IMG/VR virus record: IMGVR_UViG_3300030329_006263
Coordinates: 6,698 to 70,697 of that record
DNA length: 64,000 nt
Strand: one strand, 5' to 3'
DNA from: a virus
The translations under genes were made by a program, and so were the position numbers. Of this stretch, positions 1,519 through 24,241 are shown piece after piece. Numbering within the stretch: position 1 is the first letter of the stretch; every line of letters starts with the position of its first letter. The notes beneath the pieces were generated by a model, which was not told the origin of the DNA, made no database searches, and worked only from the letters and a program-made list of their open reading frames with translations.

Positions 1519-2139
1519 ATGAAACTACTATTTGAAAATTGGCGAGAATTCTTAAAAGAAGAAAATGAAATTGTGAAGACAAATAACGCGGTGGTTATTT
1601 TTTCTGATTGGGCGAAGGGTCATATTGAAAAGGGACACAAAGAGCCGGGAAAGGGTTCAATATTTGCAGACTTTGATCTTTCTTTGGTTAATTCTGCTCT
1701 AGAACAAATTGAAATAAATCCAAACAAAGCAGTATATACCATTAGTGTTCCAAGTGTCGGTTATAACCTAGTTCTTCCAGACAACGAGGCATCACAATTG
1801 GAAGGTGCTCAAAAAACAGAAGTAGAAAAGGAAGAAAGACAGGGACCAATCACAGTTAATGCATATACGACTTCTCAACCACTAGAGAGCTTTAAAACGG
1901 ATGAATTATCTGTTGTTATTAGACCAACAAGTGAATTACAATATGTTCCAGAGGATCTTCAACAAGATCCAGCGGTTACACAGGCGCTTGATCAAGGAAA
2001 TTTATATTCCGTTCTTTCTGCATGGCCAGGAAGAGGAGATGTACCACCGGCCTCTCAATGGGGCGATGATTGGGCTGTTATTATTCCAGATCGAGCTATA
2101 GAGAGCGATGGGGAAGTTGTCGATGAAACTCCTATTTGA
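1519..2139 (+). CDS. Leader-bearing protein (predicted capsid-targeted), unknown domain
   Basis: The first 14 residues are MKLLFENWREFLKE, the first copy of a leader shared by many proteins in the region. It ends in Leu-Lys-Glu, which matches the (L/I)-x-E consensus cut by T4-type prohead proteases, here after Glu14. The remaining 190 residues are acidic with short beta-like stretches (VYTISVP, NAVVIFS, DWAVIIPD), and I recognise no domain. The 3' end overlaps the next leader-bearing gene by 17 bases. A GAGG-type ribosome binding site precedes the ATG. Confidence 0.8.
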   Translation: MKLLFENWREFLKEENEIVKTNNAVVIFSDWAKGHIEKGHKEPGKGSIFADFDLSLVNSALEQIEINPNKAVYTISVPSVGYNLVLPDNEASQLEGAQKTEVEKEERQGPITVNAYTTSQPLESFKTDELSVVIRPTSELQYVPEDLQQDPAVTQALDQGNLYSVLSAWPGRGDVPPASQWGDDWAVIIPDRAIESDGEVVDETPI

Positions 2140-2557
2140 AAATTGGCGAGAATATTTGAAAGAAACTATAGAGAATCTTCTATGCCCTGCAGCAACTCAG
2201 GATCTGGAGCTTAATACTAGAAACAGAGACGCTGCAGTTCAAGCAGAGCACATTCAGTATGGACCTCTAAACGTTGATGAGCCTGGAGACTATTGGCAAA
2301 AAATTGCCGAGGCATGGAACACCTCAGAAAAGGCTGCGCAAAAGTCTTTGTGTGGTAATTGTGTCGCTTTTGATATTTCTCCTCGCATGAAAGATTGTAT
2401 GCCCGGAGAAACCTCAGACAAAGATGGGGAACTTGGATATTGTTGGATGCACCACTTTAAGTGTCATTCTGCTAGATCATGCAGAACGTGGGCCAAAGGT
2501 GGTCCGATCACTGAAGATATTAAATCTGCAGAATGGCAGGAAAAAAATGAACGATGA
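2123..2557 (+). CDS. Leader-bearing Cys-rich protein (predicted capsid-targeted)
   Basis: The product of 144 residues starts MKLLFENWREYLKE. I preferred the ATG at 2123 over an upstream in-frame ATG at 2108 because it puts the conserved leader at the N-terminus. The C-terminal half has a cluster of Cys and His: CGNC near residue 80, Cys near 95, then GYCWMHHFKCHSARSC and TWAKGG. Such a cluster suggests a zinc or iron-sulfur site; the GxCxxxxxKC pattern recalls small high-potential iron-sulfur-like domains of marine phages, but I cannot confirm that. The gene overlaps its neighbours on both sides (17 and 4 bases), so the cassette is translationally coupled. Confidence 0.8.
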   Translation: MKLLFENWREYLKETIENLLCPAATQDLELNTRNRDAAVQAEHIQYGPLNVDEPGDYWQKIAEAWNTSEKAAQKSLCGNCVAFDISPRMKDCMPGETSDKDGELGYCWMHHFKCHSARSCRTWAKGGPITEDIKSAEWQEKNER

Positions 2558-2808
2558 AACTCCTACTTGAAAAATGGCGAAAGATTATAAATGAAGAAGT
2601 TGTTGATTTTCCAAGTGAAATTACAGCCGTCGAGCGCTATGCTAATTATATAGAGTATATAAATTTAGCAATTGAACAAATAATCTCTCTAGAAGAGATT
2701 TTTGAGAGACAAGGTTCAACCACAGAAGATTTAGTTGAGATTAAAGAAAATCTTATACAGTTGCGAGATGACGAAACGCTAAAATACGATATGGAGGGTT
2801 ACGAATGA
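2554..2808 (+). CDS. Small leader-bearing protein (predicted capsid-targeted)
   Basis: The 84-residue product begins MKLLLEKWRKIINE, a diverged copy of the shared leader whose Ile-Asn-Glu ends exactly at residue 14. The rest is acidic and predicted to be helical (ERYANYIEYINLAIEQI). ATGA overlaps couple it to both neighbours. It could be a packaged internal protein resembling the small T4 internal proteins IPI-IPIII in size and layout, although no sequence relation to those is claimed. No enzyme motif is visible. Confidence 0.75.
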   Translation: MKLLLEKWRKIINEEVVDFPSEITAVERYANYIEYINLAIEQIISLEEIFERQGSTTEDLVEIKENLIQLRDDETLKYDMEGYE

Positions 2809-3446
2809 GATTACTATTTGAAAATTGGCGAAAATTCTTATTAACAGAAAAGCTAATGCTTAAGCCTGGGCCTGATGGGTGGGACAAGTATAAAGAATTA
2901 GTAGCAAAAGCTTATGATGAGGCTCCTATATTTGATGAGGGCGCCGTAGGCGCATTTGAAGCAATAGAGCCATTTGTGCATAAAATGTTTGATCGTATAA
3001 TTGGTTTTGGAATTGATATTGATTTTGTTGATGATAATCCTTATGAGAGTTCCGAAGAGATGTGTAGAGATGTGTCTGAAAACAAGATATTAAGAATATG
3101 GAAAGGAGGCACAGATCATCAAATATTTGACGCGAAAACAAATTTAAAATTACGGGCTGTGCATGATTATATGACACATTGTCAGGGTGGAACTAGTTTT
3201 GACCTGCAGGGCGAAATTGCCTCTTATAATCGGCATATGAAGACCGTTCCTCCTTCAGCAGCAGGAGCTTTATTTACAGAAGTTGTAGGTCAGGCAGCAT
3301 TTTTCCTTGATAGAGGATATTTCCCTCCACAAAAAATAGCTATTTTACCGGGGTTTGATTTTTTCAACGTTGGTGAAGTAGATCCAGAAATTACAGGATA
3401 TAAATTAGATGCAGAAAGGAAGGAACTAGTTAAAGTAGGAGAATAA
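2805..3446 (+). CDS. Leader-bearing protein (predicted capsid-targeted), conserved phage domain of unknown function
   Basis: The 213-residue product begins MRLLFENWRKFLLTE. The leader is one residue longer than its siblings, with Leu-Thr-Glu at residues 13-15. The body is a globular alpha/beta-looking domain with notable polar motifs: LRAVHDYMTHCQGG and FDLQGEIASYNRH, followed by an Ala-rich helix and a Pro-Gly loop. The His/Asp/Glu-rich motifs suggest an enzyme active site, but I do not recognise the family. It starts inside the preceding stop (ATGA). Confidence 0.8.
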   Translation: MRLLFENWRKFLLTEKLMLKPGPDGWDKYKELVAKAYDEAPIFDEGAVGAFEAIEPFVHKMFDRIIGFGIDIDFVDDNPYESSEEMCRDVSENKILRIWKGGTDHQIFDAKTNLKLRAVHDYMTHCQGGTSFDLQGEIASYNRHMKTVPPSAAGALFTEVVGQAAFFLDRGYFPPQKIAILPGFDFFNVGEVDPEITGYKLDAERKELVKVGE

Positions 3447-3451
3447 GAATA

Positions 3452-4104: not shown

Positions 4105-4107
4105 AAA

Positions 4108-5052
4108 ATGAAATTATTATTTGAAAATTGGAGGAAATACTTGAAAGAGGAAGAAATTCTTTACGAGAGGATTAATTTACTCTCTAGTAATAAAAGATTT
4201 GTTAACGATACCTTAGAAGAAATTGCATCAGAAGATCCTAGACGCCAATTTCCACTTTCAGACGAAGAACTAGAAAAAATAAAAAGTGTTGCGGGCCTTG
4301 ATGGAGATCCAGATTTTTTAGGATCCGGCTCAAGAGGATCTGCATGGCAATTTGGTGATAAGGTTTTAAAAATCACAGCGGACAGTTCTGAAGCGCGTGC
4401 TGCTAATTTATTAATTGACAAAGAGCATCCAAATGTATATAAAATATTTTTAGTTGTGCAAAGAGACCCAAAGCACCTTGAAACGTTAAGGCATGCGCCA
4501 TATATTGTTGTTTATGAATTATTAGATTATCCAAACAACGCCATGGTAGATACTACAAATAATTTATATCACAAGCTTAAAACAAATAATATTTTTTATA
4601 ATTGGGATGAAAATTATTTAGAGAAAGCAAAAGGTTCGATGAGTGCTTTGTTGCAATATATTAACAAACATCCAGAATCTTTAGAACGCGAAGAGAAAAA
4701 AGGATCCGACATAAGACCTACTCTTGAAAATTTAGCTGCTCAGATTGGATTAGATAAACTTGAGACAAAATTATTAATCACTTTGTGGATTTTTAGCCGC
4801 GGTGCATACAACGATACTTTAGATAGCCCACTTAAAGCGTTGGAACATGTAAGAGAAATATTTGGAAGCGTTAAAACTAATTATTTAAACCAATTAGCTT
4901 TAGGTTTGACCTGGTTAAATAAGAATGGTATTAAATTTCCTGATTTAAAAACTTCCAATGTAATGGAAAAAGATGGTCAAATAGCTATCATTGACATTGG
5001 TTATTCACAGGTAAGAGAGAAGAAAAATATTCCAACGATTGGGGAACTATAA
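4108..5052 (+). CDS. Leader-bearing protein-kinase-like protein (predicted capsid-targeted)
   Basis: The 314-residue protein starts MKLLFENWRKYLKE, with predicted cleavage after Glu14. Behind the leader is a kinase-like fold: a glycine-rich loop LGSGSRGSAW (71-80), a candidate ATP-binding Lys in KVLKIT (85-90), then near the C-terminus DLKTSN (279-284), resembling the catalytic-loop D-x-K-x-x-N, and IIDIG (294-298), resembling DFG. All canonical anchors are present in order, so catalysis is plausible. T4-like and T7-like phages are known to use protein modification early in infection. Delivery with the DNA is inferred. A second kinase-like protein is encoded at 6767. Confidence 0.8.
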   Translation: MKLLFENWRKYLKEEEILYERINLLSSNKRFVNDTLEEIASEDPRRQFPLSDEELEKIKSVAGLDGDPDFLGSGSRGSAWQFGDKVLKITADSSEARAANLLIDKEHPNVYKIFLVVQRDPKHLETLRHAPYIVVYELLDYPNNAMVDTTNNLYHKLKTNNIFYNWDENYLEKAKGSMSALLQYINKHPESLEREEKKGSDIRPTLENLAAQIGLDKLETKLLITLWIFSRGAYNDTLDSPLKALEHVREIFGSVKTNYLNQLALGLTWLNKNGIKFPDLKTSNVMEKDGQIAIIDIGYSQVREKKNIPTIGEL

Positions 5053-5601
5053 ATGAAATTATTATTTGAAAATTGGCGACAGTATTTAACTGAAAATCAA
5101 GAAGAGAACAAGGCAACAAAATTTCCAGCAATTGTCACCTTCGATTTTGATGACACTTTGTCATTATCTCACTGGGGTGAAGAAGAAGATGATTGGGTCT
5201 ACGACGGGCCTCATCAAGAAATGATGGATATACTAATGGATTATCACAGGAAAGGCTCTAAAATATTTATTGTTACCTCAAGACACAAAGAACTTCAAGA
5301 CGAGGAGGGGAAATGGTTTAAACATCTTCCAAACACCAATCCCCCTAGAAAGTACTTTGAAGAATTCCAAATGCCAGTTTGGAAATTTGTTAAAAAACAT
5401 GGATTGCCAATTCAAGATGTCATATTTACTAACGGAGAGGTAAAAGCAAAAGCTGAAGATGGCTTAATTGAAATAGGTTCGGATGTACATCATGATGATG
5501 ATCCAGAGGAAATAAGAGCAGCTGAAGAGGCTGGAATTAAAGCTATTGTCTCCGATCCATATGGAGATTATAAAAGACTTGAAAAGGGTTTTGTAAAATG
5601 A
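5053..5601 (+). CDS. Leader-bearing HAD-superfamily hydrolase (predicted capsid-targeted)
   Basis: The 182-residue product starts MKLLFENWRQYLTE and then shows a HAD fold: motif I VTFDFDDTLS (nucleophile Asp-x-Asp), motif II IFIVTSRH (Thr/Ser), and an acidic motif IV near GSDVHHDDDPEE. HAD enzymes are usually phosphatases. Marine phages carry related 5'-nucleotidase or polynucleotide phosphatase-like members, but the substrate cannot be read here. The gene begins immediately after the preceding stop and overlaps the next by ATGA. Confidence 0.85.
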   Translation: MKLLFENWRQYLTENQEENKATKFPAIVTFDFDDTLSLSHWGEEEDDWVYDGPHQEMMDILMDYHRKGSKIFIVTSRHKELQDEEGKWFKHLPNTNPPRKYFEEFQMPVWKFVKKHGLPIQDVIFTNGEVKAKAEDGLIEIGSDVHHDDDPEEIRAAEEAGIKAIVSDPYGDYKRLEKGFVK

Positions 5602-6401
5602 AATGGAAAGATTATTTAGAGGAAAATATTGATCCGGATGACGTAGATATTAAAAATGTCGCGGTCAAAGATAATTTAGATCCTGTAATATGGGATGATC
5701 GATTAAATTTAAAGAATTATCTTGCGGAACATTTATATAAAATAGCCAAAGATTTTTTTAAAACATTGGATTTAGATTGGAACTTAGTTGAAGATGTAAC
5801 TCTAACTGGATCTCTAGCAAACTACAATTGGTCTAAATATTCTGATGTGGATTTACATTTGATCGTTGATTATGCAGAAGTAGATGAAAATGAAAAGCTT
5901 GTTAAAGATTTTTTCAGAAACGCTAGCGCAATGTGGAATCGTACTCATAAAATAACAGTGAAGGGTCATGATGTGGAATTGTATGTCCAGGACTCAAAAG
6001 AGCCACACCATTCAACAGGAGTGTATTCTATAAAGTATGATAGATGGAATAACACTCCAACAAAATATGATCCACAAATAGATAAAGAATCATTAAAGAA
6101 GAAGTCTGCAAAATGGATGAACGATATTGATGAGGTATATGAACTGCTTGCAGTAAAAGATTATAAAACCGCAAATGAACAATCTGAGCGTCTTATGAAA
6201 AAATTAAAAAAATATAGACAAGGTGGATTAGAAAAAGGTGGAGAGCATTCAATTGAAAATTTAGTTTTTAAAGTTCTAAGACGTAATGACTATTTACAGA
6301 GACTCTCTAATTTAAGAATTGTATCGTATGATAATATGATGACTGTCAATGGAGGAATAGGAAGTGAAATTATCAAAATCAGTCTTAATGAAACTAATTA
6401 A
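5598..6401 (+). CDS. Polymerase-beta-type nucleotidyltransferase with short leader
   Basis: The 267-residue product begins MKWKDYLEEN, a shortened form of the leader with Leu-Glu-Glu at residues 7-9. The signature of the polymerase-beta nucleotidyltransferase superfamily follows: VTLTGSLANYNWSKYSDVDL, with the Gly-Ser and the metal-binding Asp-x-Asp (SDVDLHLIVD), and a third acidic strand (HDVELYVQD). Members transfer nucleotides to RNA, proteins or small molecules. The same family is known from marine T4-like phages with unknown targets. The C-terminal half is a Lys/Glu-rich helical region. It overlaps the preceding gene by four bases. Confidence 0.85.
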   Translation: MKWKDYLEENIDPDDVDIKNVAVKDNLDPVIWDDRLNLKNYLAEHLYKIAKDFFKTLDLDWNLVEDVTLTGSLANYNWSKYSDVDLHLIVDYAEVDENEKLVKDFFRNASAMWNRTHKITVKGHDVELYVQDSKEPHHSTGVYSIKYDRWNNTPTKYDPQIDKESLKKKSAKWMNDIDEVYELLAVKDYKTANEQSERLMKKLKKYRQGGLEKGGEHSIENLVFKVLRRNDYLQRLSNLRIVSYDNMMTVNGGIGSEIIKISLNETN

Positions 6402-6510
6402 AGAAGAGCTTGCAACTCTTTATGAATGACCTGAAAATCCTTTGGGGTCTCCAGAGGAAAGTGTTGTTATGATTGCCGAAGATGAAGACGAAGACGAAGA
6501 AGAGGTATAA
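6364..6510 (+). pseudogene. Mini-ORF: leader peptide with in-frame TGA and acidic tail
   Basis: A GTG at 6364 lies about 8 bases after a strong GGAGG. It opens a 21-residue product MKLSKSVLMKLIKEELATLYE, which matches the class-2 leader seen at 9163 and 10272 (Leu8, Ile-Lys-Glu at 12-14). A TGA at 6427-6429 ends it. The same frame then continues for 26 codons to TAA at 6508, giving a Pro/Ser then Asp/Glu-rich tail. TGG in place of TGA would restore a 48-residue protein. It could be a recently broken gene, a readthrough gene, a sequencing error, or a free leader peptide. The start overlaps the preceding gene by 38 bases. Confidence 0.6.
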
Positions 6511-6512
6511 CT

Positions 6513-6767
6513 ATGTGTTTAGTTTGTATTGAATATGAAAAGGGCAAATTAAAAATTAATGAGGCCCTCAGAAACATAGAAGAAATGAAAGAAGTTGTTG
6601 GTCAAGAACATTATGATGAAACTATGGCATTTCTCACTCAAGAATTGTTAAAAGAACAATGGAGTGAATATGATTTCGGTCGTGACATCGAAGATAGTCT
6701 CTTTGAATATGATTTTCATAGTGGCGATGATGACGACCCATGGGAAGAAACAGGGTTCGGGGACTAA
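6513..6767 (+). CDS. Small acidic protein, conserved in marine phages
   Basis: The 84-residue protein starts MCLVCIEYEKGKLKINEALRN and ends in a very acidic stretch (SGDDDDPWEE). The N-terminal 'CLVC.EY.KGKLxxxEAxRN..EM' pattern is familiar from T4-like marine phages, but no function is known to me. The two N-terminal Cys could bind metal. The stop overlaps the next start as TAATG, so the two genes are translationally coupled. Confidence 0.75.
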   Translation: MCLVCIEYEKGKLKINEALRNIEEMKEVVGQEHYDETMAFLTQELLKEQWSEYDFGRDIEDSLFEYDFHSGDDDDPWEETGFGD

Positions 6768-8872
6768 TGAAGTTTTTTGAAGGTTGGAATCGGTTCTTAA
6801 ATGAGTCCGAAGATGTAGACGTTTATGCAAAAACCAAACTACAAAAGCCCAAAGGTCAGGAAATAGAAACTGATGAGTATGATGCGCCCTATGAATATGA
6901 TGATTCACCCGAAAAATCAGCAGAAACATATTTTGGCAAAAGTCCTGACAATCTTCCGTGCGTAAGAGATCTTAGAGATCAATCAAAAGATGTTTTTCCT
7001 CCAGATTTTTATAAATGTATGGAGGCTGCAGGCTATACTAAACTTGGAGCAGGCTCTTTTAGAGCAACTTTCGATGTTCCAGAAAATCCTGAGCTAGTTT
7101 TAAAGATTGTCGGCCCTGCAAATAGCTATCCAGAACAAATAAGAAGCAGAGAGATGAACAAAGAGGAGGCTAAAGCCTCTTATCAAACCGCGTCTGAATT
7201 AATTCCTAAAGTTTACAATAGTGCTAAAGATTATTTTTGGATTATATCCGAAAAAGTGACTCCAATAGAGGATTGGAAGGCGATGCAGGAGTTTTTCCCC
7301 ATATGGAAAGAGGAGCCTCTTGAAGAATTTCAATATTGGTTCCAAAAATTAATTGATTCTAGAACAATACCTAAAATTGCTGCGGAGCGAATAAATAAAC
7401 GAGCAGAATATACAGTAAGTTATGGCGACGGTGAAGAATTGGTCAACGATCCTCTCATATTAAACATTCGTGACCTTCTAGCACAATTTGATTTACCTGC
7501 ATGGGACATTAGACCACATAATGTTGGTTATGCTGTTAGAAATGGTCAAAAACAGTTTGTTATATTAGACCCAGGCTTTGAATTGGGGAAAGATGTCGGC
7601 ACTATTAAAGGCCAAGCTGTGGATCCAGGAAGGGGAATATCAGCTATCTTTGACGATGATAAGAAATATGTTAAGACCTGGAGTCCAGAAGCTCGTAAGA
7701 CCACAGTCGTAAAAGAGAATTTAAATAAAAATTGGCAACTTTTCTTAGAAAATGAAGAAAATGAAGAAAATGAAGAAAATGTAAAGGGTCCGGACGACTT
7801 TTTCTACGATATTTCGAAATCTCCGAACAAAATCACTATTAATGTGCTTGATATGGATAAAAACCCCGTTGATAGCAAGAAAAAAGACACAAAATCCTTT
7901 ATTTCAATGGAAAAACGCACAGATGTGCCAAATTGGGAAGTTTCCTGGTCATCTTCGCCCGAAAACAGCAAAGAAGTGGGCAAAACCATGTATTTAATGG
8001 CTCTAGAGCTAGCTGAAGAGGGATTAGCGCCCGATTCTTACGAAACTAGCCCAGATGCACTTAAAATTTGGCACATATTCATGAAAAACAATGAATTTGG
8101 GGTTGAAAAGCAGTTAAAAGACGGTCATGAGGGTCAAGATGAGTCAGATCCCTTCAATTTTGTGTTTTTTAAGCCAAAAAGTGGCATTTTAGGCCAATAT
8201 CAGCACCAAATTAACGAAAAAGAGGCAAAAAGTGACGAAAAAGCGGGTTTTGACCCCGAAAAAGAGGAAAAAGTCGAATATTTCGACCCAGAACAGTTTA
8301 ATTGGGAAGATTTAGACGATATTGACGAACTATATGAGCGCTTAACCAGAGATAATGACACAGATATGGTCTCAAAGGTGATTATTGCCGATGATAGCGG
8401 CAAAATATTGATTTTAAAGCGCTCAGATAAGGGAAATATGTGGGATTTGCCCGGAGGACACCTAAAAAAAGGTGAAAATCCGCTTGATGGGGCCCACAGA
8501 GAGACAAAAGAAGAGACAAATCTTGATATTTCGGATTTAAGTGCCTTAAATACGCATGAAAACGTTCATTTTTTCAAATGTGGAGCACCAAAAGGAGATA
8601 TATCACTCCAACCAGAGGAGCATACTGACTTTATGTGGGTAAATCCGAAGGAAATTGACCAATACGACATGAAAAACCACCAAAAAGAAGCTATTTTAGG
8701 TGCATTTGAGCCTTTAGAGGAACAAAATGAGCCATATCAGAGGTTTTCTAGGGGTACATACAAGAAATTTATAACAAAATTGGCCAAACAAGGCCCAAAT
8801 AAGTATAGTATAGGTGGGAAAATGAAAAAAGCAGCTGCAAAACACCTCAAAAGTGGCCCACCGGGAGGCTAA
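6767..8872 (+). CDS. Leader-kinase-acetyltransferase-like-NUDIX fusion protein (predicted capsid-targeted)
   Basis: The 701-residue product starts MKFFEGWNRFLNE, a leader with cleavage expected after Glu13. Residues about 91-275 look like a kinase fold: LGAGSFRA loop, VLKI Lys, catalytic-loop-like DIRPHN at 247-252, and LDPG at 267-270. Residues 317-330 (ENLNKNWQLFLENE) repeat the leader internally. Residues about 345-470 resemble a GNAT acetyltransferase (VGKTMYLMALELAEEGL, TSPDALKIW). Residues about 535-660 are a NUDIX hydrolase with a complete box from Gly564: G-x5-E-x7-RE-T-x-EE. A short Lys-rich tail ends the protein. The internal leader suggests fusion of two once separate genes. The start uses TAATG overlap; an ATG at 6740 would mask the leader. 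Confidence 0.85.
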   Translation: MKFFEGWNRFLNESEDVDVYAKTKLQKPKGQEIETDEYDAPYEYDDSPEKSAETYFGKSPDNLPCVRDLRDQSKDVFPPDFYKCMEAAGYTKLGAGSFRATFDVPENPELVLKIVGPANSYPEQIRSREMNKEEAKASYQTASELIPKVYNSAKDYFWIISEKVTPIEDWKAMQEFFPIWKEEPLEEFQYWFQKLIDSRTIPKIAAERINKRAEYTVSYGDGEELVNDPLILNIRDLLAQFDLPAWDIRPHNVGYAVRNGQKQFVILDPGFELGKDVGTIKGQAVDPGRGISAIFDDDKKYVKTWSPEARKTTVVKENLNKNWQLFLENEENEENEENVKGPDDFFYDISKSPNKITINVLDMDKNPVDSKKKDTKSFISMEKRTDVPNWEVSWSSSPENSKEVGKTMYLMALELAEEGLAPDSYETSPDALKIWHIFMKNNEFGVEKQLKDGHEGQDESDPFNFVFFKPKSGILGQYQHQINEKEAKSDEKAGFDPEKEEKVEYFDPEQFNWEDLDDIDELYERLTRDNDTDMVSKVIIADDSGKILILKRSDKGNMWDLPGGHLKKGENPLDGAHRETKEETNLDISDLSALNTHENVHFFKCGAPKGDISLQPEEHTDFMWVNPKEIDQYDMKNHQKEAILGAFEPLEEQNEPYQRFSRGTYKKFITKLAKQGPNKYSIGGKMKKAAAKHLKSGPPGG

Positions 8873-8904
8873 ACACTAGTTATTTAGGAGAGGAGAAGCT
8901 TAAA

Positions 8905-9162: not shown

Positions 9163-10269
9163 ATGCGCGTCACAAAAACTGAACTTAAAAGGCTCATTAA
9201 GGAAGAATTAGAAGCAGTTTTAAAAGAAAAGGTGGGCGACGATCTCGACTCAGATCTGCAGCATGCGGAGCATTGGTATGAGCATTGGAAAAATATACAT
9301 AATAATACCAGTGATAAAAACGGCCAGATGTGGGATGACTCCAGAATGCAGATGCAGCACTATTTGGCACAAATTACAAATATTAAAGCCGCGAAGAAGG
9401 CCGCAGCTGCGAAGAAGAAAGCTGCCGCGAAGGAAGCGATGAAGGCTCGTCGACAAGATGCTCTATCAACCATGGACACGCCACAAGAGGCAATGGAATA
9501 TTGGTGTGGGAAAGATTGTCCTCCAGACACTCCAGTGCCGGAAGATTGGAAAGAGAGGACAAAGGCGGCACTATTGAAACAATTTTCTGGTGGCGACTGG
9601 AAAGAGGGCAAAGTTGAGGAGGGGGACATCGAAGTAGACTGGATGCCCGAACCTAATGATTGGGTTGGTTCTGGATATAGAGAAGTTGCTAGCGCAGTTA
9701 AAAACATTACTGGCTTAAAATCTCTAAAGGGGGGCTGGTGGAGAAAGCCGCTACCAGAAGGCAAATGTAATGATCCAGAATTTTGTTATACAGAAGGTCG
9801 TAGAGCGGGTAGAATGAAACGCAATCACCCTGTTCGAGTTGCATTCCGAAAATATTATAATGCAAGAAAAGGAAAGAAAAGAAAGCCAAAAAAAGAAGGC
9901 CCAATGAAATTTTATACAAAAGGTAATCAGGCTTCAGCTGGTGCAATTGAGGCAATTAAAAAAGGCGAAGAGGCAGTATTGGTGGTTGATGATAACCAAA
10001 AAGAAGTGAGTCGAATTAAAGACATTGATGAAGCCATTGGTATAGTAATGGGAAATATTAATGCTTCTGATGATAAAGGCGACAGAAAGGCGAGTCGAGC
10101 GGCTAGAAAAGAACTTAGAAGGCTTAAAGTCACGAAGCGCGCTCTAGCTAAAAAAGCAAATAAAAAAGCTGGCTTGGGAGATCTCTATAAAAGAGCAGGA
10201 AAGAGAAAACGCGTTCCCTCATCACAACTAACCAAAAAACAACAAAATTTACAAACCAAGGCTAAATAA
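9163..10269 (+). CDS. Leader-bearing basic protein with GGWWR/HPxRVA module (predicted capsid-targeted)
   Basis: The 368-residue protein begins MRVTKTELKRLIKEEL, a class-2 leader with Ile-Lys-Glu at 12-14. A Lys/Ala-rich helix follows (about residues 70-95). The middle holds NDWVGS...GGWWRKPLP...HPVRVAFRK followed by a Lys/Arg run (GKKRKPKK). The same module occurs near the C-terminus of the protein at 16755. The C-terminal third is again very basic. High charge suits an internal virion protein bound to DNA, as T4 internal proteins are. An AAGGAG site precedes the ATG, and an ACTATTTAT element lies at 9131. Confidence 0.8.
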   Translation: MRVTKTELKRLIKEELEAVLKEKVGDDLDSDLQHAEHWYEHWKNIHNNTSDKNGQMWDDSRMQMQHYLAQITNIKAAKKAAAAKKKAAAKEAMKARRQDALSTMDTPQEAMEYWCGKDCPPDTPVPEDWKERTKAALLKQFSGGDWKEGKVEEGDIEVDWMPEPNDWVGSGYREVASAVKNITGLKSLKGGWWRKPLPEGKCNDPEFCYTEGRRAGRMKRNHPVRVAFRKYYNARKGKKRKPKKEGPMKFYTKGNQASAGAIEAIKKGEEAVLVVDDNQKEVSRIKDIDEAIGIVMGNINASDDKGDRKASRAARKELRRLKVTKRALAKKANKKAGLGDLYKRAGKRKRVPSSQLTKKQQNLQTKAK

Positions 10270-10271
10270 CA

Positions 10272-10886
10272 GTGTTTATTACAAAAAATAAACTCCGCAC
10301 AATTATTCAAGAAGAATTGGAGAATGTTGTTGATGATTTACAAAACATTTGGAAAATGTTGGGGGCAAAAGACAAGGCTGCGTTTGCTAGTAACGTTAAA
10401 AAAGTAAAAAATACAATACAAAGAAAACGCACATCGTCTTCGCGCAACAAGTGCCCAGAAGGAGAAGAACAAGTAGGTACATTGGAAGGCGGCGAAGTTG
10501 TATGTTGGCCTATAGGTTGGGAACCTCCAGAACCAAAAAAATTAACACAAAGACAACTTAACATGCCCAGAACGAGTACAAAAAAAAGTAAAACAGTGGC
10601 ACACAAGCCTGCTCCTGAAGAATTGCCAATAAATATTGATGGGGATGAAGATTCAGCGCTTTGGACGGTTTTAACACACAAAGGACAAAACGCATCAAAA
10701 GAGGAAAACGCTAGAAATATTCAAATATTTAAAAAAGTATTCGGGGACGGAGATTATGATGAAGAAGATATTGCACTTGTTAATAAATTATTAGATTCTC
10801 CCGAATTCGCTTGGACAAAAAAAGCTAGATACAACCCAAGAAGAAAGTGGGCTGTAAAGATGCTGCGGCAGGGTGGAAAAAAATAA
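10272..10886 (+). CDS. Leader-bearing protein (predicted capsid-targeted), unknown domain
   Basis: The GTG at 10272, three bases after the previous stop, opens a 204-residue product MFITKNKLRTIIQEEL, a class-2 leader with Ile-Gln-Glu at 12-14. The middle is basic and Ser/Thr-rich with the pair CPEGEEQV...VVCWPIG. The C-terminal 60 residues are helical and end in NPRRKWAVKMLRQGGKK. No domain is recognised. The leader and charge suggest an internal capsid protein. Confidence 0.75.
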   Translation: MFITKNKLRTIIQEELENVVDDLQNIWKMLGAKDKAAFASNVKKVKNTIQRKRTSSSRNKCPEGEEQVGTLEGGEVVCWPIGWEPPEPKKLTQRQLNMPRTSTKKSKTVAHKPAPEELPINIDGDEDSALWTVLTHKGQNASKEENARNIQIFKKVFGDGDYDEEDIALVNKLLDSPEFAWTKKARYNPRRKWAVKMLRQGGKK

Positions 10887-14006: not shown

Positions 14007-15704
14007 ATGAAGCATTTATTTGAGAATTGGCGCCAATATGTTAACGAGGATGTTGTAGATTTAGCCTCTCGCCGCAAAAAATCCGAAAAAGAATTTGTTT
14101 TTACAGACGCAGAACTTAATAGCCTTAATGACGCAATTGCTAGAGTTATTGATGGCGCTAAAAAAGTTCTTGGCGCTGATGGTGAAACTCCATTCTTAAG
14201 TCCAGATTCATTAGAAAAAATTGAACTTGCACAACCAATGAGAATGGTCGCAGAGCAAACAGATGAAGAGCTTGGAATAACCCCATTTCAATCTTCACAA
14301 GCCTCTCCAGAACAAATGGCCCTTAGAAAACAATATTATGGACCAGAAGGAGAATTGACCAAAGGTGGACCTAAAGCAGTCAGAGGCTTAGAAAAAGGTT
14401 TAGGTCAAATGTCAGCAGAGGAATTTGAAGAAGCGGGATATGTTATTAAAGTTCCTCAAAGTGTTTTAAATGATTTTGGACAATTGGTTGAAAGCACAAA
14501 AGAAACCGCAGGTTTGTTTGAAGAAGCTAGAGATTGGTATCACAACATACGTGGATTGCTCGATAGAGAGACAGAGAACGACCGTGACAGCGCTTTATTA
14601 GGTCTTTTGATTGCTACCTACTCTCCACGCGCTAAGTTCGCTCTAAACCTCGCTGAAGCCGTCTTTATGTACAAAGCTGTACAAAGAGATGCACAGAATA
14701 ATCCAGAAGGCTTAAGACAATATCTAGAAACATTTCCTGGATCTGAAAAAAGAGAACCAGGATCTTTTAGGGGTTTTACGGGTGCGCACAAAGTACCAAA
14801 TTTCGCCCTTAATCTAGTTGCACCAAACTTAGCTGGTGAAAAAAGCGAGTTTGGAGATATTGTTTATAATGATCTCTATGAGTGGAATTCTACAATTGAT
14901 ACTTGGATGATAGACGCTTTTTATCCTTCGCTAAGAAAAGCATCAACAGCAAAAGAATGGGAAGGCATAAAAGGTAAATTAATGTCTAATGTAGTTTCTT
15001 ATCGATATATGGCTAGATTAGTTGCAAAAGAAGCAAAAAATTTAAATTTATTGCCACATGAACTTCAAGCTTTAATTTGGGTTGCATCTCAAATTAGACA
15101 AACCGGTGAAGCAGGTTTAGGAGTGACTACACAATTTGCTTTTGATCAAATTAGAGAAGCAATAACGAACATTGCTGAGATTAATAATGATCTGCGCGCC
15201 CTTAAAGATCTAGAAGAGAAAGATTGGCTAGGTACAATTATTAGTACAATTGATGTTGATGGTTTTGAAGAAGCAGCGAAATATCTTTTAGGAATTAAAG
15301 ATGAGAAAGGGAAAATAACTACTCCCGGAATTAGGAGTATTACTGCCAGTGGAAAGAAAGGCTCAATGTTTGACTATTTCCCTGCCCCAGAGAAAGTGGA
15401 AAAACCAAAAGGGCCCAAAAAGGCTAAAAAGGCTAGCGCTCCGAAAGAAAAAGTAATGAAGCCATATGAAAATCCTGAATATGGGGATTTAAATGCGCAC
15501 TATGTAATGAATAGTGTTATTCAGATGCCAACTGGTAAATTTAATAACCTATATGACTCCATAACTCTTTATTTGGATCCTGAATTTTCTACAGATAAAG
15601 CTGTAGAGCATATTTTAGGAAGGTTTGATCCCGAAGCGAAAGCTTCGAAAGATTATTTTAAAGAAAATAAAATAAGAGTATTTATCCGTAAACGTTTATT
15701 ATAG
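14007..15704 (+). CDS. Large leader-bearing protein (predicted capsid-targeted), unknown domain
   Basis: The 565-residue protein starts MKHLFENWRQYVNE, a class-1 leader with Val in place of Leu/Ile before x-Glu14. The central region (about 170-400) is helical and well conserved in feel: WYHNIRGLLD, LLGLLIATYSPRAKFALN, IDTWMIDAFYPSL and ALIWVASQIRQTGE. The last two resemble a motif I recall from a phage family of unknown function (perhaps DUF7178), though I am unsure. A Lys/Pro-rich linker near residue 470 separates a C-terminal domain ending in basic residues. The gene lacks a ribosome binding site and is preceded by the ACTATTTAT element. Confidence 0.8.
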   Translation: MKHLFENWRQYVNEDVVDLASRRKKSEKEFVFTDAELNSLNDAIARVIDGAKKVLGADGETPFLSPDSLEKIELAQPMRMVAEQTDEELGITPFQSSQASPEQMALRKQYYGPEGELTKGGPKAVRGLEKGLGQMSAEEFEEAGYVIKVPQSVLNDFGQLVESTKETAGLFEEARDWYHNIRGLLDRETENDRDSALLGLLIATYSPRAKFALNLAEAVFMYKAVQRDAQNNPEGLRQYLETFPGSEKREPGSFRGFTGAHKVPNFALNLVAPNLAGEKSEFGDIVYNDLYEWNSTIDTWMIDAFYPSLRKASTAKEWEGIKGKLMSNVVSYRYMARLVAKEAKNLNLLPHELQALIWVASQIRQTGEAGLGVTTQFAFDQIREAITNIAEINNDLRALKDLEEKDWLGTIISTIDVDGFEEAAKYLLGIKDEKGKITTPGIRSITASGKKGSMFDYFPAPEKVEKPKGPKKAKKASAPKEKVMKPYENPEYGDLNAHYVMNSVIQMPTGKFNNLYDSITLYLDPEFSTDKAVEHILGRFDPEAKASKDYFKENKIRVFIRKRLL

Positions 15705-15745: not shown

Positions 15746-16741
15746 ATGTTTGCAGATATTATTGTTGACTTACAATATGGAGATTGCGGAAAAGGAAAAG
15801 TAACACACGCTCTGTGTAAGAGGGGAAACTACACACATGTTATTAGATACAATGGGGGATGTAATGCTGGTCATACAATCTTCCACAATGGGCATAAGTT
15901 CGTTACTCACCATATCCCTGCAGGAGTTTTTTTCAATATTAAGTCCATTATTGGCTCTGGCTGTGTACTCAATGTTAGCCAGTTTTTTAAAGAAATAAAA
16001 GAATTAGAAGATGGTGGAATTAAGACAGAAGGTCTTATTTATGTTGCAAAAAATGCTCATATTATTACACAAGATCACCTTGATGAAGACGGGAAAGATA
16101 CAGCGATTGGGACAACTAAGAGAGGAAATGGACCAGCTTATCGCGATAAGTATGATAGAAAAGGCTTGAGAGCAAAAGACATTCCAGAACTTCGACCATA
16201 TTTAATTGATCTATATGAAGAACTTCATATAAAAAATAAAGACTCAATAGTATTATTTGAAGGCGCTCAAGGTTTTGGATTAGATATTGATTGGGGTGAT
16301 TATCCTTACGTAACTTCTTCCAATTGTATTTCCGCTGCAGCATGTATGAATGCAGTTCCTCCACGAAATATTCGTCATATTTGGGGGGTGGCTAAGGCAT
16401 ATGAAACATATGTTGGAGCAAAAGAGTTTCAACCAAAGGGCGAAATATTTAATAAAATCCAAGAAGTTGGTGAAGAATATGGAGCAACTACGGGCAGAAA
16501 ACGTCAAGTTAATTGGATGGATATAAATTTTTTAAAAAAAGCAATTCAAATAAATGGTGTAACACATTTAGTTTTTAATAAGATGGATGTATTAACAGAA
16601 ATAGAAAGTTGGTCATTGGTTGAAAATGACACGATGAAACGCTTTGATTCTGAAAAAGGCTTTACAGAATTTATTTTAAAATATCTCGTCCCCCAGAGAT
16701 TACATCAAGTTCATTTTTCCCGCCATAAAGATAAGATCTAA
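15746..16741 (+). CDS. Adenylosuccinate synthetase-family enzyme (short, archaeal PurA/PurZ type)
   Basis: The 331-residue protein shows the family motifs in order: LQYGDCGKGK (10-18) with the catalytic Asp13, GGCNAGHT (37-44), GTTKRGNGPAYRDKYDRKGL, VLFEGAQG, GATTGRKRQVNW and NKMDVL, the last being the guanine-recognition motif of GTP users. PurA joins IMP and Asp; phage PurZ uses dGMP and makes 2-aminoadenine DNA. Bacterial PurA is about 430 residues, whereas archaeal PurA and PurZ are about 340, so this belongs to the short branch. Retained Asp13 and the NKxD motif argue for PurA or a GTP-using PurZ0-like enzyme rather than classical PurZ. A GGAGGG site precedes the ATG. It has no leader, so it probably acts in the infected cell. 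Confidence 0.9.
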   Translation: MFADIIVDLQYGDCGKGKVTHALCKRGNYTHVIRYNGGCNAGHTIFHNGHKFVTHHIPAGVFFNIKSIIGSGCVLNVSQFFKEIKELEDGGIKTEGLIYVAKNAHIITQDHLDEDGKDTAIGTTKRGNGPAYRDKYDRKGLRAKDIPELRPYLIDLYEELHIKNKDSIVLFEGAQGFGLDIDWGDYPYVTSSNCISAAACMNAVPPRNIRHIWGVAKAYETYVGAKEFQPKGEIFNKIQEVGEEYGATTGRKRQVNWMDINFLKKAIQINGVTHLVFNKMDVLTEIESWSLVENDTMKRFDSEKGFTEFILKYLVPQRLHQVHFSRHKDKI

Positions 16742-16749: not shown

Positions 16750-16754
16750 TGCGT

Positions 16755-19445: not shown

Positions 19446-19457
19446 GGATAATAGACA

Positions 19458-20681
19458 ATGAAAAATTCCAAAGATCAACTAACGGAACAAGAGATAAAAA
19501 AAATAATCAAAGAAGTTCTTTTAGAAAATCCTGAATTGTTAGAAGAGTGGGGCATGCCGTCTTGGAAGGATGTTAAGCGCACCTTTAAAAGAGCACAAAA
19601 TGCGCCGCGATATTGGGCTGGAAGAGCCGCCAATAAAGTCTATGACTTGACTCAGGGCCCTGCGCCCGACTCAGTATTACAAAGAGGTGGTGGAAAGGTA
19701 GATATACCAGCGAGCAAAAAAGAACAAGAAGCTCGAAGAAAATATAAACTTGCGGACAAAAAATGCGCACAGACGGGCGATCCGAAAGATTGCGCAGAAG
19801 CGAAAAAGTTGTTAAAGAAAGCACACGCCATCGCTCAAGGCGATACGCGTAAAGGCGGGTTCGAGAGAACAGAATGGCACGGCAATTGGAAAGATATAGA
19901 CATTGCAGGTGGAAAGGGGATAGGATGGCGCACTAGTGGTGGGTTTACCTCAAAGGACAGATATAAGGACGAGACAGAAGACACGCTACAGACCGCTAAA
20001 GCTGCAACTGCAATTGCTGCACTTGGAGGCGCAGGGATGGTTGCTAAACTTGCCCCGGGCATGCTAGCAAAAGGGCCAACCGTTGGAAAGATAATGTCTA
20101 TTAATCCCATGCAACATGTATTTAGAAAAATGGGTATGAATGAAAAATTTGCATCTATTGCAACACTTTTGTTTGATGCTGGTATTGGATTTTCTGAACA
20201 GTGGTTTTGCGGATTGAACATTAAAGGAGTTAGAATATATGACGATATTTTAAAACATGTAGATCCAGTGCACTATCTTGCCATAATTCCATTGCAGAGG
20301 GCATGGCCTGGAGGCAACACAGGGCAATTATTCAGTAGAGATATAAAATTTGGCGGGAATGTACCAATTGACTGGACTAATGAAAAGCAAGTGAATTCAT
20401 TATATGACCATATCAATCAATCAATGATGAATGATGAAGATCGAGAAGCTGCTAGAAACCTCAGAGACGATATTACACAGAAAGTTGCACAGTTAAATCG
20501 CCTTGCACAAGAAGAAAATATGTGCCCAAAGGCTTATGAAAAATTGATGCAAATTAAAGGCGCGCAAGAAGAATTAGCAAAAATTATTGGAAAGAATATA
20601 GAAAAAGAGACAGAAAAAAATCAGAAAGATTTAGATAAAAGAAAAAATATTCTGAAAAGACTGAAGGGCAATAACCAATAA
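19458..20681 (+). CDS. Leader-bearing protein (predicted capsid-targeted), possibly membrane-active
   Basis: The 407-residue protein starts with a variant leader, LTEQEIKKIIKEVLLE, with Ile-Lys-Glu at 17-19. The N-terminal third is basic. Residues about 185-270 contain an Ala/Gly-rich hydrophobic region (AATAIAALGGAGMVAKLAPG) and further apolar stretches (IATLLFDAGIGFSEQWF), suggesting membrane contact. The C-terminal 80 residues are a charged coiled coil. A packaged protein that interacts with the host membrane during entry is one possible reading; no family is recognised. The ribosome binding site is AAGGAT. Confidence 0.75.
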   Translation: MKNSKDQLTEQEIKKIIKEVLLENPELLEEWGMPSWKDVKRTFKRAQNAPRYWAGRAANKVYDLTQGPAPDSVLQRGGGKVDIPASKKEQEARRKYKLADKKCAQTGDPKDCAEAKKLLKKAHAIAQGDTRKGGFERTEWHGNWKDIDIAGGKGIGWRTSGGFTSKDRYKDETEDTLQTAKAATAIAALGGAGMVAKLAPGMLAKGPTVGKIMSINPMQHVFRKMGMNEKFASIATLLFDAGIGFSEQWFCGLNIKGVRIYDDILKHVDPVHYLAIIPLQRAWPGGNTGQLFSRDIKFGGNVPIDWTNEKQVNSLYDHINQSMMNDEDREAARNLRDDITQKVAQLNRLAQEENMCPKAYEKLMQIKGAQEELAKIIGKNIEKETEKNQKDLDKRKNILKRLKGNNQ

Positions 20682-20690
20682 GAGGATAAA

Positions 20691-23474
20691 ATGGGCACAT
20701 CAGGACACATGCAACACCCTTTTGACATTCCAAGTGTCAAAACAGGACAAGACTTAATAAATTATTTCGAGAGAATTGTAGAACATCTTTCTGCAAATCC
20801 CGGAAGTGTTAAATTCGATGGCATTAATGTAAGCTTTAAATTAGTTGATGATGAATCCACTCCAACTGGAAAAGACTTCAGAATGGATCGTGGAACTTCC
20901 GCACCAGAATCAGTTATAGGAATGACGGCAGCAGATGCATATAAAAAGTGGCCTGAAGGTCATGGAATGCCCCCAGCAATAGATGAACTCTTAAAAATAT
21001 TTAATGAAGCGCTGCCACTAATTGAGCCAGAATTAAAAGCTTTAGGAATGTGGGATGATCCTACAAAATATTTCAATACCGAATATATGAAGAAGGGCAG
21101 AACAAACGTTGTTGAATACGGTGAAAAAATATTAGCTCTTCATGGTGTAAATCAGTTTTATGAAAAGAAAGCACAAGCCCATAGAATTAAAAAAGGCATT
21201 GGAATGGATCGCCCAGGTTTAGAAAGACCAATTGATCCAGAAACTGGAAAGCCAACAAAACATGGAAGCACAGAAGTTCCTTATGATAGCGGAGTTTTAC
21301 AATCTATTATTGAAAAAGTAAAACCAATTGCAGAACAACATGAAGTTAGTTTAGTTGGAGATGTATCAACTGAGATATCTGCAGAAGTTGATTTTTCTGA
21401 AACGTTAAGTAAGCCATTTACGATAAATATGACAGACACAGAAAGCGAAACTCACTCTTTAGGCGAGTGGCTTTCTTCTGCTGTTAATCCTTTTGATGCT
21501 AAAGTACAAAAGCGTGATGGTAAACAAGCATGGGCAATAAGTAAAGAGATTTATTTTGCTGTTTTAAATGGTGTTCCCCTCATGGAAATGTTGGAGACTC
21601 CAGAAGACGTTAAAACGGCCATTAACGGCGCTCTTTTCAATCATGCGACCCATGAGTTGGGTATGGACGTTAAACGCGCTTCAACAAGCTCTAAAGGCGG
21701 TTTAGAGGGTCATGAAGGTATTGTGATTAGAGGCATCGATGATAGACCTGTGAAAGTCACTGGAGATTTTATTGTAAAAGGCGCTGGTGGAGCAATAAAG
21801 GATAAAATTAAAGCCTCCAAAGAAAAAGAGACTCTTGCTGAAATTGCAGATGAGCCGATAGATTTAGAATTTGAGATAGGAGATAATTTCGAAGAAGAGC
21901 CTGTTGAAAGAAAAATGGTCGCAATTTATCCTGGTAGATTTCAGCCTATGGGAAGACATCATGCTGAAGTCTATAAAGCTTTGCTAAATGATGAAAGATT
22001 TGATGATGTTTTCATATCGACGTCAGATAAAGTTGAGATGCCGAAGTCTCCATTCAATTTTAAAGAAAAGCAAGAAATTGCTGCTGGGCATGATATAGAC
22101 CCATCTAAAATTGTACAAACTAAAAATCCCTACAATGCAGTTGAAATAACTAACAGTCTCGATCCTGAAACTGTTGTTGTTTATTTTGTGGGATGTAAAG
22201 ATATGGATGCTGATCCAAACGTTTGTGATGGTACAAAACCAAGATTCCCTAGAGAAAGCTTGGGAGGAATGACTAAAAAAGGCACACCAAGATATTTTAG
22301 AGCTTTTGAGGATGAAGAAGATTTTAAAGGAGTGAAAGATCATGCTTATATAGCTGTTGCTCCTCACATAGAAATTGAAATTCCAGAGCTTGGTGAGATG
22401 TCTGGTACGACAATAAGACAAGCGCTTCAAACAGCAGAGCCTGAAAAATTTGAAAGCATTATGGGATTCTATGATCCTGTTGTATATGATATGATTAAAT
22501 CAAAGTTAAACTCTGAGCAAGAAGAATTACAGGAGGTTTCCCAGTTGCCTCTGGGTATCTTTCTTGGGTTAATTGAAGAAGTATTAAATGAAGTTGATCC
22601 AGTTGCGATGTATGGAGCGAATATTGCTAATGTTCCGGAAGTAGCATATAAATCTTATGGCACCAAGCAAGAACTAAATGAGATATACAGTGAAGATTAT
22701 TCAGAAAAAGAATCTAGAGAAAATTTATTTGATGAACAATATCAAGAAGCTGTTGATGAAAGTGAATATAAACAAAAATATTATGATTTATTTATATCAC
22801 AGCAAGATGCTAAGAAAATGTTGGATACATTAAATAATTCCTTCCCCGATTGGAAAGATCAAGAAGTATTACCTAGTGAATTTGACGATATCGAAGAAAA
22901 ACTACATAAAGATGATTTGTGGAATGTTATCAAAGACACAAAATTATCAGATGGGGATATAACTTATAAAGAAATTTTGAATAAAAATGCTTTTGCCAAC
23001 GCAACTAGGGAAAATGCACGATGGATTCAAGGCCCTAGAGAAATGCTACAAGACGAAGAAAAGATATATGGTGGGCGTGATCGAAATGCTCAAACTTATC
23101 CTTCTGAAAAAAGGGCTGTCTGGGCATGGAGCGTCGAAGGAAGAGGAAATTATTTAGGCTTTTCTCCAAAAGATATGGTAAAGGCCTCCAAAAGATACAT
23201 TTATCCATATGCCAAATATTATATAAAATATTTTATGGAAGAATTATTTGAAGTTGTTGATGACACTATCAAAAATATGGATGCATATGCTAGCTTCCTA
23301 TCTGATATATGGCATAAAATGAGTGATACCCCAATTGAGCAAAAAGAAGATTTAGAGGAAATATCTGCCATGGGAGCAGGAGCAGTAGAAGGTGGTGGCA
23401 GAACAGATGAACAAGAGGGGTTAATTAGAGAGGTTGAAGACTATTTATATAAGCTATTAGGAGTCACAGAATGA
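20691..23474 (+). CDS. Ligase-like nucleotidyltransferase fused to a cytidylyltransferase (NMNAT-like)
   Basis: The 927-residue protein appears to hold two nucleotide-handling domains. The N-terminal one has VKFDG (Lys41), resembling the KxDG nucleophile motif of ATP-dependent ligases and capping enzymes, and a distant EGIVIRG (about 342) resembling motif IV. The second (about 405-610) is a cytidylyltransferase/NMNAT fold: YPGRFQPMGRHH near residue 413 and SGTTIR near 571. It could make or salvage NAD or transfer nucleotides; marine T4-like phages have related proteins. A C-terminal third contains a leader-like hydrophobic helix (LGIFLGLIEEVLNE) and unassigned sequence. The gene overlaps the next by ATGA and lies at the end of the leader-bearing cluster, although its own N-terminus is not a typical leader. 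Confidence 0.8.
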   Translation: MGTSGHMQHPFDIPSVKTGQDLINYFERIVEHLSANPGSVKFDGINVSFKLVDDESTPTGKDFRMDRGTSAPESVIGMTAADAYKKWPEGHGMPPAIDELLKIFNEALPLIEPELKALGMWDDPTKYFNTEYMKKGRTNVVEYGEKILALHGVNQFYEKKAQAHRIKKGIGMDRPGLERPIDPETGKPTKHGSTEVPYDSGVLQSIIEKVKPIAEQHEVSLVGDVSTEISAEVDFSETLSKPFTINMTDTESETHSLGEWLSSAVNPFDAKVQKRDGKQAWAISKEIYFAVLNGVPLMEMLETPEDVKTAINGALFNHATHELGMDVKRASTSSKGGLEGHEGIVIRGIDDRPVKVTGDFIVKGAGGAIKDKIKASKEKETLAEIADEPIDLEFEIGDNFEEEPVERKMVAIYPGRFQPMGRHHAEVYKALLNDERFDDVFISTSDKVEMPKSPFNFKEKQEIAAGHDIDPSKIVQTKNPYNAVEITNSLDPETVVVYFVGCKDMDADPNVCDGTKPRFPRESLGGMTKKGTPRYFRAFEDEEDFKGVKDHAYIAVAPHIEIEIPELGEMSGTTIRQALQTAEPEKFESIMGFYDPVVYDMIKSKLNSEQEELQEVSQLPLGIFLGLIEEVLNEVDPVAMYGANIANVPEVAYKSYGTKQELNEIYSEDYSEKESRENLFDEQYQEAVDESEYKQKYYDLFISQQDAKKMLDTLNNSFPDWKDQEVLPSEFDDIEEKLHKDDLWNVIKDTKLSDGDITYKEILNKNAFANATRENARWIQGPREMLQDEEKIYGGRDRNAQTYPSEKRAVWAWSVEGRGNYLGFSPKDMVKASKRYIYPYAKYYIKYFMEELFEVVDDTIKNMDAYASFLSDIWHKMSDTPIEQKEDLEEISAMGAGAVEGGGRTDEQEGLIREVEDYLYKLLGVTE

Positions 23475-24241
23475 ACCCACAAGAACAACAGTTAAGATTA
23501 TTAATCCGTGAAGGCATGCGTATTGTTAAAAATAAAAGAGATGCGCAGCTTTTAGAAGAGCAAAGATTGAGAAAAATTATTAGAGGCCTTATTTCTGAAG
23601 TATCTAAGAAAACTGCAGTTGCTGATAAAGTTGTTCATAAAAATACTGGTATAAATAAATTAGATGCACTTCTTAAACGCATCATTACTCAAATTGAAGA
23701 TGCATACACTAATTTGTCTTCTAGTGAAGAAGAGAGAAAATCATTTAGATACCACTTCTTAGTTAATTTTAAAAATCTGTTAGCTCCGGTCGATGCAAAT
23801 AGAGATGCACCTAATAGAGAAAAGATGGCACTAGCAGAACAAGATTTTAAAGTAGGTGTTGAACAGGATGATGTGACTAGCGAACCAGATCCAGATAAAT
23901 TTCTACCCTCAAGACCTCAAGATATTGAAGCAGCAAAGGCTGAAGAGGAGGAGGAAGGAAAAACGTTTGAAAAATTAGACTCTTCCGACCCTTATGTTAG
24001 ACAAGGCGCCGAAGCAGCAGAGACCGCTCTAAACGATGTAGAGACTCAAATTGTTAATTCATACGAGGGACTTATCGTACCAGAGGACGCAGCTGCATTC
24101 AAAGATTGGGGCTTAACTAATCTTAAATTGTACTTTGATATGTTTGAAGATGAAATGACTAGTGATGTTGGAGAGGAACCAGAAAGTCCTGATTATCCTG
24201 CTGGAGATGATACTTTAAAAGAAGTAATATATGATATATAA
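23471..24241 (+). CDS. Acidic helical protein with class-2-like leader
   Basis: The 256-residue product begins MNPQEQQLRLLIREG, placing Leu8 and Ile-Arg-Glu at 12-14 as in the other class-2 leaders. A second similar helix (LRKIIRGLISEV) follows at about 32-43. The centre is helical, and the C-terminal half is strongly acidic with Glu runs and DDVTSEPDPD-type stretches. It could be a packaged scaffold-type or internal protein. ATGA overlap with the preceding gene implies co-translation. Confidence 0.75.
   Translation: MNPQEQQLRLLIREGMRIVKNKRDAQLLEEQRLRKIIRGLISEVSKKTAVADKVVHKNTGINKLDALLKRIITQIEDAYTNLSSSEEERKSFRYHFLVNFKNLLAPVDANRDAPNREKMALAEQDFKVGVEQDDVTSEPDPDKFLPSRPQDIEAAKAEEEEEGKTFEKLDSSDPYVRQGAEAAETALNDVETQIVNSYEGLIVPEDAAAFKDWGLTNLKLYFDMFEDEMTSDVGEEPESPDYPAGDDTLKEVIYDI

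Follow-up and report, generated by a model that had tools for sequence, protein, structure and literature searches.

The DNA analysed here, called the window, is a stretch of 64,000 bases (bases 6698-70697) within the 82,980-base linear viral record IMGVR_UViG_3300030329_006263. The record is T4-like, with gp25-like and gp6-like baseplate genes inside the window; the T4-like head genes gp21 and gp23 are found in relatives of this phage. N-termini were checked by translating both strands of the window plus its flanks. Ten open reading frames (1519, 2123, 2554, 2805, 4108, 5053, 5598, 6767, 10889, and 14007) translate to starts of the MKLLFENWRxYLxE kind (type 1), exactly as the original prediction had proposed. 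It had also placed a second leader (type 2) at five starts. This is present at 9163 and 10272, in degenerate form at 23471 and in a longer form at 19458, while the ORF at 6364 has only 21 codons. In the following list, a slash marks the predicted cut.

1519-2139, plus strand: type-1 leader MKLLFENWREFLKE/E, then a 192-aa uncharacterised body
2123-2557, plus strand: type-1 leader MKLLFENWREYLKE/T, then a Cys-containing uncharacterised body
2554-2808, plus strand: type-1 leader MKLLLEKWRKIINE/E, small uncharacterised body
2805-3446, plus strand: type-1 leader with a shifted site, MRLLFENWRKFLLTE/K; phrog_3170-like body
4108-5052, plus strand: type-1 leader MKLLFENWRKYLKE/E; protein-kinase-like body (Pkinase, sub-threshold)
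5053-5601, plus strand: type-1 leader MKLLFENWRQYLTE/N; HAD/PNKP-phosphatase-like body
5598-6401, plus strand: short leader of T4 length, MKWKDYLEE; nucleotidyltransferase-like body
6364-6429, plus strand: 21-codon ORF VKLSKSVLMKLIKEELATLYE*, a type-2 leader and then a stop
6767-8872, plus strand: type-1 leader MKFFEGWNRFLNE/S; fusion of a kinase-like part, an internal degenerate leader NWQLFLEN, a GNAT-like part, and NUDIX
9163-10269, plus strand: type-2 leader MRVTKTELKRLIKE/ELEAVLKE/K; Lys-rich uncharacterised body
10272-10886, plus strand: type-2 leader MFITKNKLRTIIQE/E, GTG start; uncharacterised body
10889-11233, plus strand: type-1 leader MKPILENFRKYLKE/I; small uncharacterised body
14007-15704, plus strand: type-1 leader MKHLFENWRQYVNE/D; DUF7178-like body
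19458-20681, plus strand: longer type-2-like leader, ...LTEQEIKKIIKE/VLLENPELLEE; uncharacterised body
23471-24241, plus strand: degenerate type-2 leader with a second copy, QQLRLLIRE/G ... QRLRKIIRGLISE/V; uncharacterised acidic body

Because the leader at 6364 runs straight into a stop codon, this ORF is probably the relic of a leader gene. The ORFs at 2123 and 6767 have alternative in-frame starts 15 and 27 bases upstream, respectively, and in both the start at the leader fits better. A hand count agrees with the prediction that 11 of the 15 starts have an [LIV]-x-E tripeptide whose Glu is residue 14; in the others, the site ends at residue 9 in 5598, 13 in 6767, 15 in 2805, and 19 in 19458. 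Upstream of the window there are at least four more leaders of type 2 (L001 2485, 2757, 3306, and 5453). The ORF at 3306 has a second, internal copy, and there is a possible additional leader near 4595. Homologues of the 2123 body bear the same leader type at ten or more other loci. The 14007 protein is 83% identical in the relative G001 (185,564 bases), and its body is about 30% identical to a counterpart in Microcystis phage Mel-JY01. Across nine orthologues of 14007, leader residues M1, L4-E6, W8, R9, and E14 are invariant.

Other genes of the window deserve mention. An adenylosuccinate synthetase (15746-16741; PF00709, E 1.6e-85) that has no leader lies among the leader genes and could be of the PurZ kind (2-aminoadenine DNA). 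The 710-aa lipoprotein-like protein at 11290-13422 carries repeated MopE copper-binding motifs (PF11617, E 5.5e-23), and its C-terminal part looks VWA-like by eye, which is unusual in a phage. Immediately past the leader region there is a complete tmRNA gene (24751-25131; Rfam RF00023, 112 bits; tag ANDNVEFDYALAA). By eye, the gene at 25593-26678 resembles an archaeal-type (type II) GAPDH (MKKNVLIIGTGTIGEPLIGLL), with no Pfam match at 0.01; a similar gene is found in G001 at 9715. A trypsin-like protease gene (PF13365) with a signal-like start lies on the minus strand at 27001-27753, and G001 has a minus-strand gene of similar size at the equivalent place. A large sugar/glycan cluster (32235-46827) contains glycosyltransferase-like genes, epimerases, and NeuB (38619-39449, E 1.6e-63); its gene content is unlike that of G001.

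Distribution and anatomy of the leaders

Could such starts arise by chance? Real and shuffled N-termini were scanned for a motif that resembles a capsid-targeting sequence (CTS), [YWFLIVM]xx[YWFLIVM][LIV]xE with its last residue at 9-20. It was found in 17 genes of the window record against 2.5 +/- 1.5 in the shuffles, and in 22 against 5.0 and 13 against 1.8 genes of relatives. The same scan gave no excess in T7 or SPO1, and it recovered four T4 genes that we take to be those of IPII, IPIII, gp61.1, and gp24. A simple gene caller was used that misplaces some gene starts, so leader-gene counts per genome are approximate. In a six-frame scan of the record, both strict leader patterns were confined to ORF starts on the plus strand.

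A degenerate nucleotide pattern encoding the start MKLLFENW matched at least 120 stretches in viral contigs and none in 84,980 prokaryote genomes; the occurrence of the same N-terminus in cellular proteins, which would have counted against the prediction, was thus not seen for type 1. The type-2 pattern, run on viral contigs, matched 72 stretches. Among the matches listed, 318 of type 1 lay at ORF starts and 13 were internal, nearly all of the latter by chance; the loci had been picked with ATG-initial patterns, which favours starts, although the looser pattern used for counting needs no ATG. The register was identical in 299 of these 318. The matches to type 2 comprised 247 at starts and nine internal ones, some of them true second copies. 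A tblastn search of named phages with the bare leaders found nothing at E<=10, although queries of 21-22 residues make this a weak test, and the 9163 and 4108 proteins likewise had no matches there.

Shared starts of other kinds were also seen. In Mel-JY01 (60276-62718; L015 10276-12718), three paralogues have a common leader-like start, MIKLxSLxxEIISDRVWH, which is possibly another type of tag or plain paralogy. A tiny-gene array in G001 (163611-167018), with starts M[QK]xGDLVK or similar, represents a paralogous family of its own in these phages.

From the matches listed, 231 non-redundant type-1 leaders and 187 others were compiled. Type 1 has W8 in 95%, Y/F11 in 96%, L/I/V12 in 94%, and E14 in 85%, positions 1-12 being partly demanded by the search and E14 being free. 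Conservation collapses directly past E14: residues 12 and 14 carry 2.62 and 2.45 bits of information, but residues 15 and 16 carry 0.55 and 0.21. An [LIVM]xE site ends at residues 14-18 in 212 of 221 type-1 leaders listed, whereas shuffling of residues 13-40 gives about 50 (maximum 65). Leaders that are one residue longer re-register the site (e.g., YLLTE in WRQYLLTE). In type 2, a second site ends at residues 20-22 in 70 of 182 leaders against 5 in shuffles (maximum 11); type 2 is therefore a tandem with a period of 8. The residue past the predicted cut is often E, G, or D and not mainly A, whereas T4 cut sites have A next.

Injected head proteins that are processed by a prohead protease are also known from other phages, namely the ejection proteins of phiKZ and SPN3US and Dar of P1, the latter with an anti-restriction role. 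Their propeptides are longer and the protease specificities differ from those expected of the leaders here. We know of no common 14-residue tag among them.

Prohead protease and gp23 in relatives

Does this lineage encode a protease that could cut the leaders? The prediction had called for a gp21-type protease elsewhere in the genome, the lack of which would have told against it. No Peptidase_S77 protease was found on the window's own 83-kb record, which is an incomplete fragment, but of 19 long viral records with leaders, 18 have both Peptidase_S77 and Gp23 and the nineteenth has neither. Since the record itself shows none, the protease of the window phage is postulated from these relatives. 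The S77 protease of G001 matches T4 gp21 of known structure. All 16 gp23 sequences, found by pattern, have a predicted site [LV]L[RK]E/[ASV] at residues 59-60; the counterpart in T4 gp23 is FLTE/A. In six of the head modules inspected (G009, G011, G017, G018, G019, and G023), leader genes directly adjoin gp21.

Another conserved gene adjoining gp21 (L022 17026-17466, equivalent to G001 97026-97466, and homologues) starts with MKK[ST][DE]LKK[IV]LKPLVKQC..EVLLEEG. This start is type-2-like, and the gene may encode a core protein ancestral to the type-2 leader.

Bodies behind the leaders

The statement that unrelated domains lie behind the leaders holds well beyond the window. At the loci listed, BLASTP separates the bodies into about 300 families, 197 of them single, although remote homology would merge some. 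Four families bear both leader types, so that the two types interchange on homologous bodies: bodies that are 58% identical have type 1 in L228 and type 2 in L250, and a 73%-identical stretch is preceded by type 1 in L120 and type 2 in G003. Similarly, two homologous bodies in Flavobacterium phage immuto have different CTS-like starts; this cultured phage has similar leaders on its genes at 109856 and 111184. Most bodies have no informative family match. Those that are recognised include NUDIX, CCA-adding/polyA polymerase, 2H phosphoesterase, guanylate kinase, HD, RNase T, kinase, GNAT, ADP-ribosyltransferase (ART-PolyVal), NT5C/HAD, and AAA_33. The expectation of basic proteins among the cargo proved mostly wrong. 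The bodies are mainly acidic (median pI 5.0/5.2; pI >8 in 89 of 414), unlike the T4 internal proteins, which are basic (pI 9.6-9.7). Basicity is, however, a trait of those T4 proteins and not of the tag.

The kinase-like, GNAT-like, and NUDIX modules of the 6767 fusion occur as separate leader genes in relatives. The internal leader of such fusions is NWQLFLEN, with N where E14 is expected. In T4, a leader with Asp at the corresponding position blocks processing and keeps targeting (PMC9026906). Given this effect in T4 and the change of the internal E14 to N, the 6767 fusion may be packaged unsplit, to judge from a few related proteins.

Leader genes tend to be patchier across relatives than other genes. 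In G002, 1 of 14 leader genes is present as compared with 34 of 78 other genes (p = 0.014); the difference in G001, 5 of 14 against 43 of 78, is not significant. T4 late-promoter motifs (TATAAATA-type) were not enriched upstream of leader genes or of other genes of the group.

T4 internal proteins, cyanophage virions, and the role of the leaders

The closest parallel is found in T4, where IPI-IPIII (CTS MKTYQEFIAE/A) and Alt carry the same short N-terminal tag on unrelated bodies encoded at variable accessory loci. In the IPIII leader, residues 4 and 7 target the protein, and residues 8 and 10 direct processing (PMC9026906). The IP leader by itself brings foreign proteins into the head (PMC9026906, PMC3012670). 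Ip1-3 are similar in the leader only and are injected inhibitors of restriction enzymes (PMC12373910). The T4 residues Y4, F7, I8, and E10 map one-to-one onto W/L8, Y/F/I11, L/I12, and E14 of the leaders described here; in both there is an aromatic or hydrophobic residue at i and i+3, [L/I] at i+4, and E, the cut site, at i+6. The 5598 protein and G001 175962 (MNKWKKFLDE) even have leaders of near-T4 length. As in T4, a gp21-family protease and gp23 are encoded, here seen in relatives. There are also differences. The T4 tag has ten residues, whereas here there are two types, usually of 14 or 22 residues and of other sequences, and type 2 is without a direct experimental counterpart. T4 has few tagged genes, as opposed to roughly 15-20 per phage. 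Many of the mostly acidic bodies are recognisable enzymes, and the tandem-site and polyprotein forms are unlike T4.

Are proteins with such starts found in virions? Table 3 of a study on cyanophage S-CREM2 lists virion proteins with coordinates, as determined by mass spectrometry (PMC10665884). When the listed genes are translated, the SAM hydrolase starts with MKDFDSFLEE, the kinase with MKRFDAFLTE, and the cytidylyltransferase with MKNFSSFLTE; two hypothetical proteins start with MKDLHSFLTE and MQTFSMFFSE, and a Cas9-like protein has FASFMAE/A at residues 19-25. Among the annotated genes in the first 150 kb, a strict T4-type start goes with virion detection in that table in 5 of 5 cases, as compared with 43 of 200 genes (p = 4e-4). 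With a broader motif the count is 5 of 7 (p = 0.006), which is the safer figure because the strict form was set after the hits had been seen. The authors caution that abundant proteins may co-purify with virions.

Virion enzymes listed for the marine cyanomyoviruses S-CREM2, S-SM1, and S-SCSM1 (SAM hydrolase, kinase, and cytidylyltransferase/NMNAT) thus have, in S-CREM2, a tag of the T4 type MKxFxxFLxE. In P-SSM2, T4-GC190 starts with MKSFSQFLTE, and its orthologue is among the proteins reported from S-SM1 virions (PMC3037559). One body family is common to the window phage and S-CREM2: the 5598 protein is 33% identical over 215 aa to ORF156, which is listed as virion-detected (PMC10665884) and has a weak leader, MKKLISE. 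BLAST does not support homology of 4108, 6767, or 20691 to the S-CREM2 virion kinase or cytidylyltransferase, so this parallel is one of type only. In the available portions of the cyanophage virion papers, the authors do not link packaging to a leader. Our searches found no virion proteomics for the window phage or for phages with these exact leaders, and no report in the literature searched ties such leaders to marine T4-like phages, which is not proof of absence.

How might the leaders act? By analogy with T4, the N-terminal helix would be bound by the prohead core during head assembly, and the attached protein would be drawn inside. A gp21-family prohead protease would then cut after the Glu of [L/I/V]-x-E, at residue 14 in type 1 and at 14 and/or 22 in type 2, and so release the cargo inside the head. 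From there the enzymes would be ejected into the host with the DNA, where they would probably counter defences or seize the cell at once.

An alternative is that the leaders are uncut tags for docking to some other structure of the phage or the host (membrane, ribosome, RNA polymerase, or tail) and that the proteins act in the cytoplasm late in infection. The leader is plausibly an amphipathic helix, and the AlphaFold model of 14007 (mean pLDDT 50) has a helix at residues 2-20 at low confidence. However, conservation that stops exactly at an [LI]xE protease site, the presence of gp21 and gp23 in nearly all the long records, the like site in gp23, and the coincidence of strict T4-type leaders with detection in the S-CREM2 table make docking improbable. 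A second alternative, that these are scaffold proteins which build the prohead core and, once cleaved, are discarded, with no delivery of enzymes, would account for the type-2-like start of the gene beside gp21; T4 core proteins, too, are cut at LxE (PMC9026906). Yet about 300 unrelated and often enzymatic bodies at the loci listed (NUDIX, CCA-adding, 2H, guanylate kinase, GNAT, ADP-ribosyltransferase, kinase, and HAD) are ill-suited to a scaffold, as is patchy occurrence to an essential part, and this explanation is very unlikely. An effect at the level of DNA (a recombination hotspot, a translation enhancer, or a mobile 5' cassette) is scarcely credible and the nucleic-acid cassette is rejected: the same-codon rate of leaders within genomes slightly exceeds expectation (0.52-0.67 against 0.45-0.52), but synonymous sites are near saturation while the residues are kept, and two unrelated DNA sequences give tags with the same residue spacing. 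Leader codons are barely more shared than codon usage predicts, and thus it is the protein sequence that is under selection.

The leaders are therefore very probably capsid-targeting and cleavage tags of the T4 type, borne by a large accessory set of internal proteins; that the enzymes are active when injected is likely, if somewhat less so. The proposed T4-type leader cut by a gp21-like protease after (L/I)xE is supported by nearly every sequence test tried: the spacing, the conservation cliff, the protease and gp23 of relatives, the gp23 site, the swapping of leaders, the lack of cellular matches, and the S-CREM2 virion table. The claim of novelty holds in part. A common leader that targets proteins to the head has its precedent in T4; new here are the existence of two leader types, the scale, and a cargo of enzymes.

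The window phage and its IMG/VR relatives probably pack a changeable kit of enzymes in the head and inject it with the DNA. On balance, we lean towards a wider picture of an uncultured T4-like lineage with two interchangeable tags for entry into the head, one of them a two-site tandem. Each virion would be loaded with some 15-20 different proteins, drawn from hundreds of cargo families that the lineage has in common. Part of this cargo would consist of fused multi-enzyme chains, kept intact by an internal tag that lacks the cut residue, and the head would be a general container for enzyme delivery.

If this is true, a pattern of 14-22 residues would predict, from sequence alone, which of the numerous uncharacterised proteins in T4-like phages accompany the DNA into the cell. 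The published but unexplained kinases, cytidylyltransferases, and SAM hydrolase of cyanophage virions would be united under one mechanism, and phage heads could be loaded with proteins by means of new natural tags. Hundreds of anonymous genes would become candidates for proteins of host takeover in the first minutes of infection, or of anti-defence.
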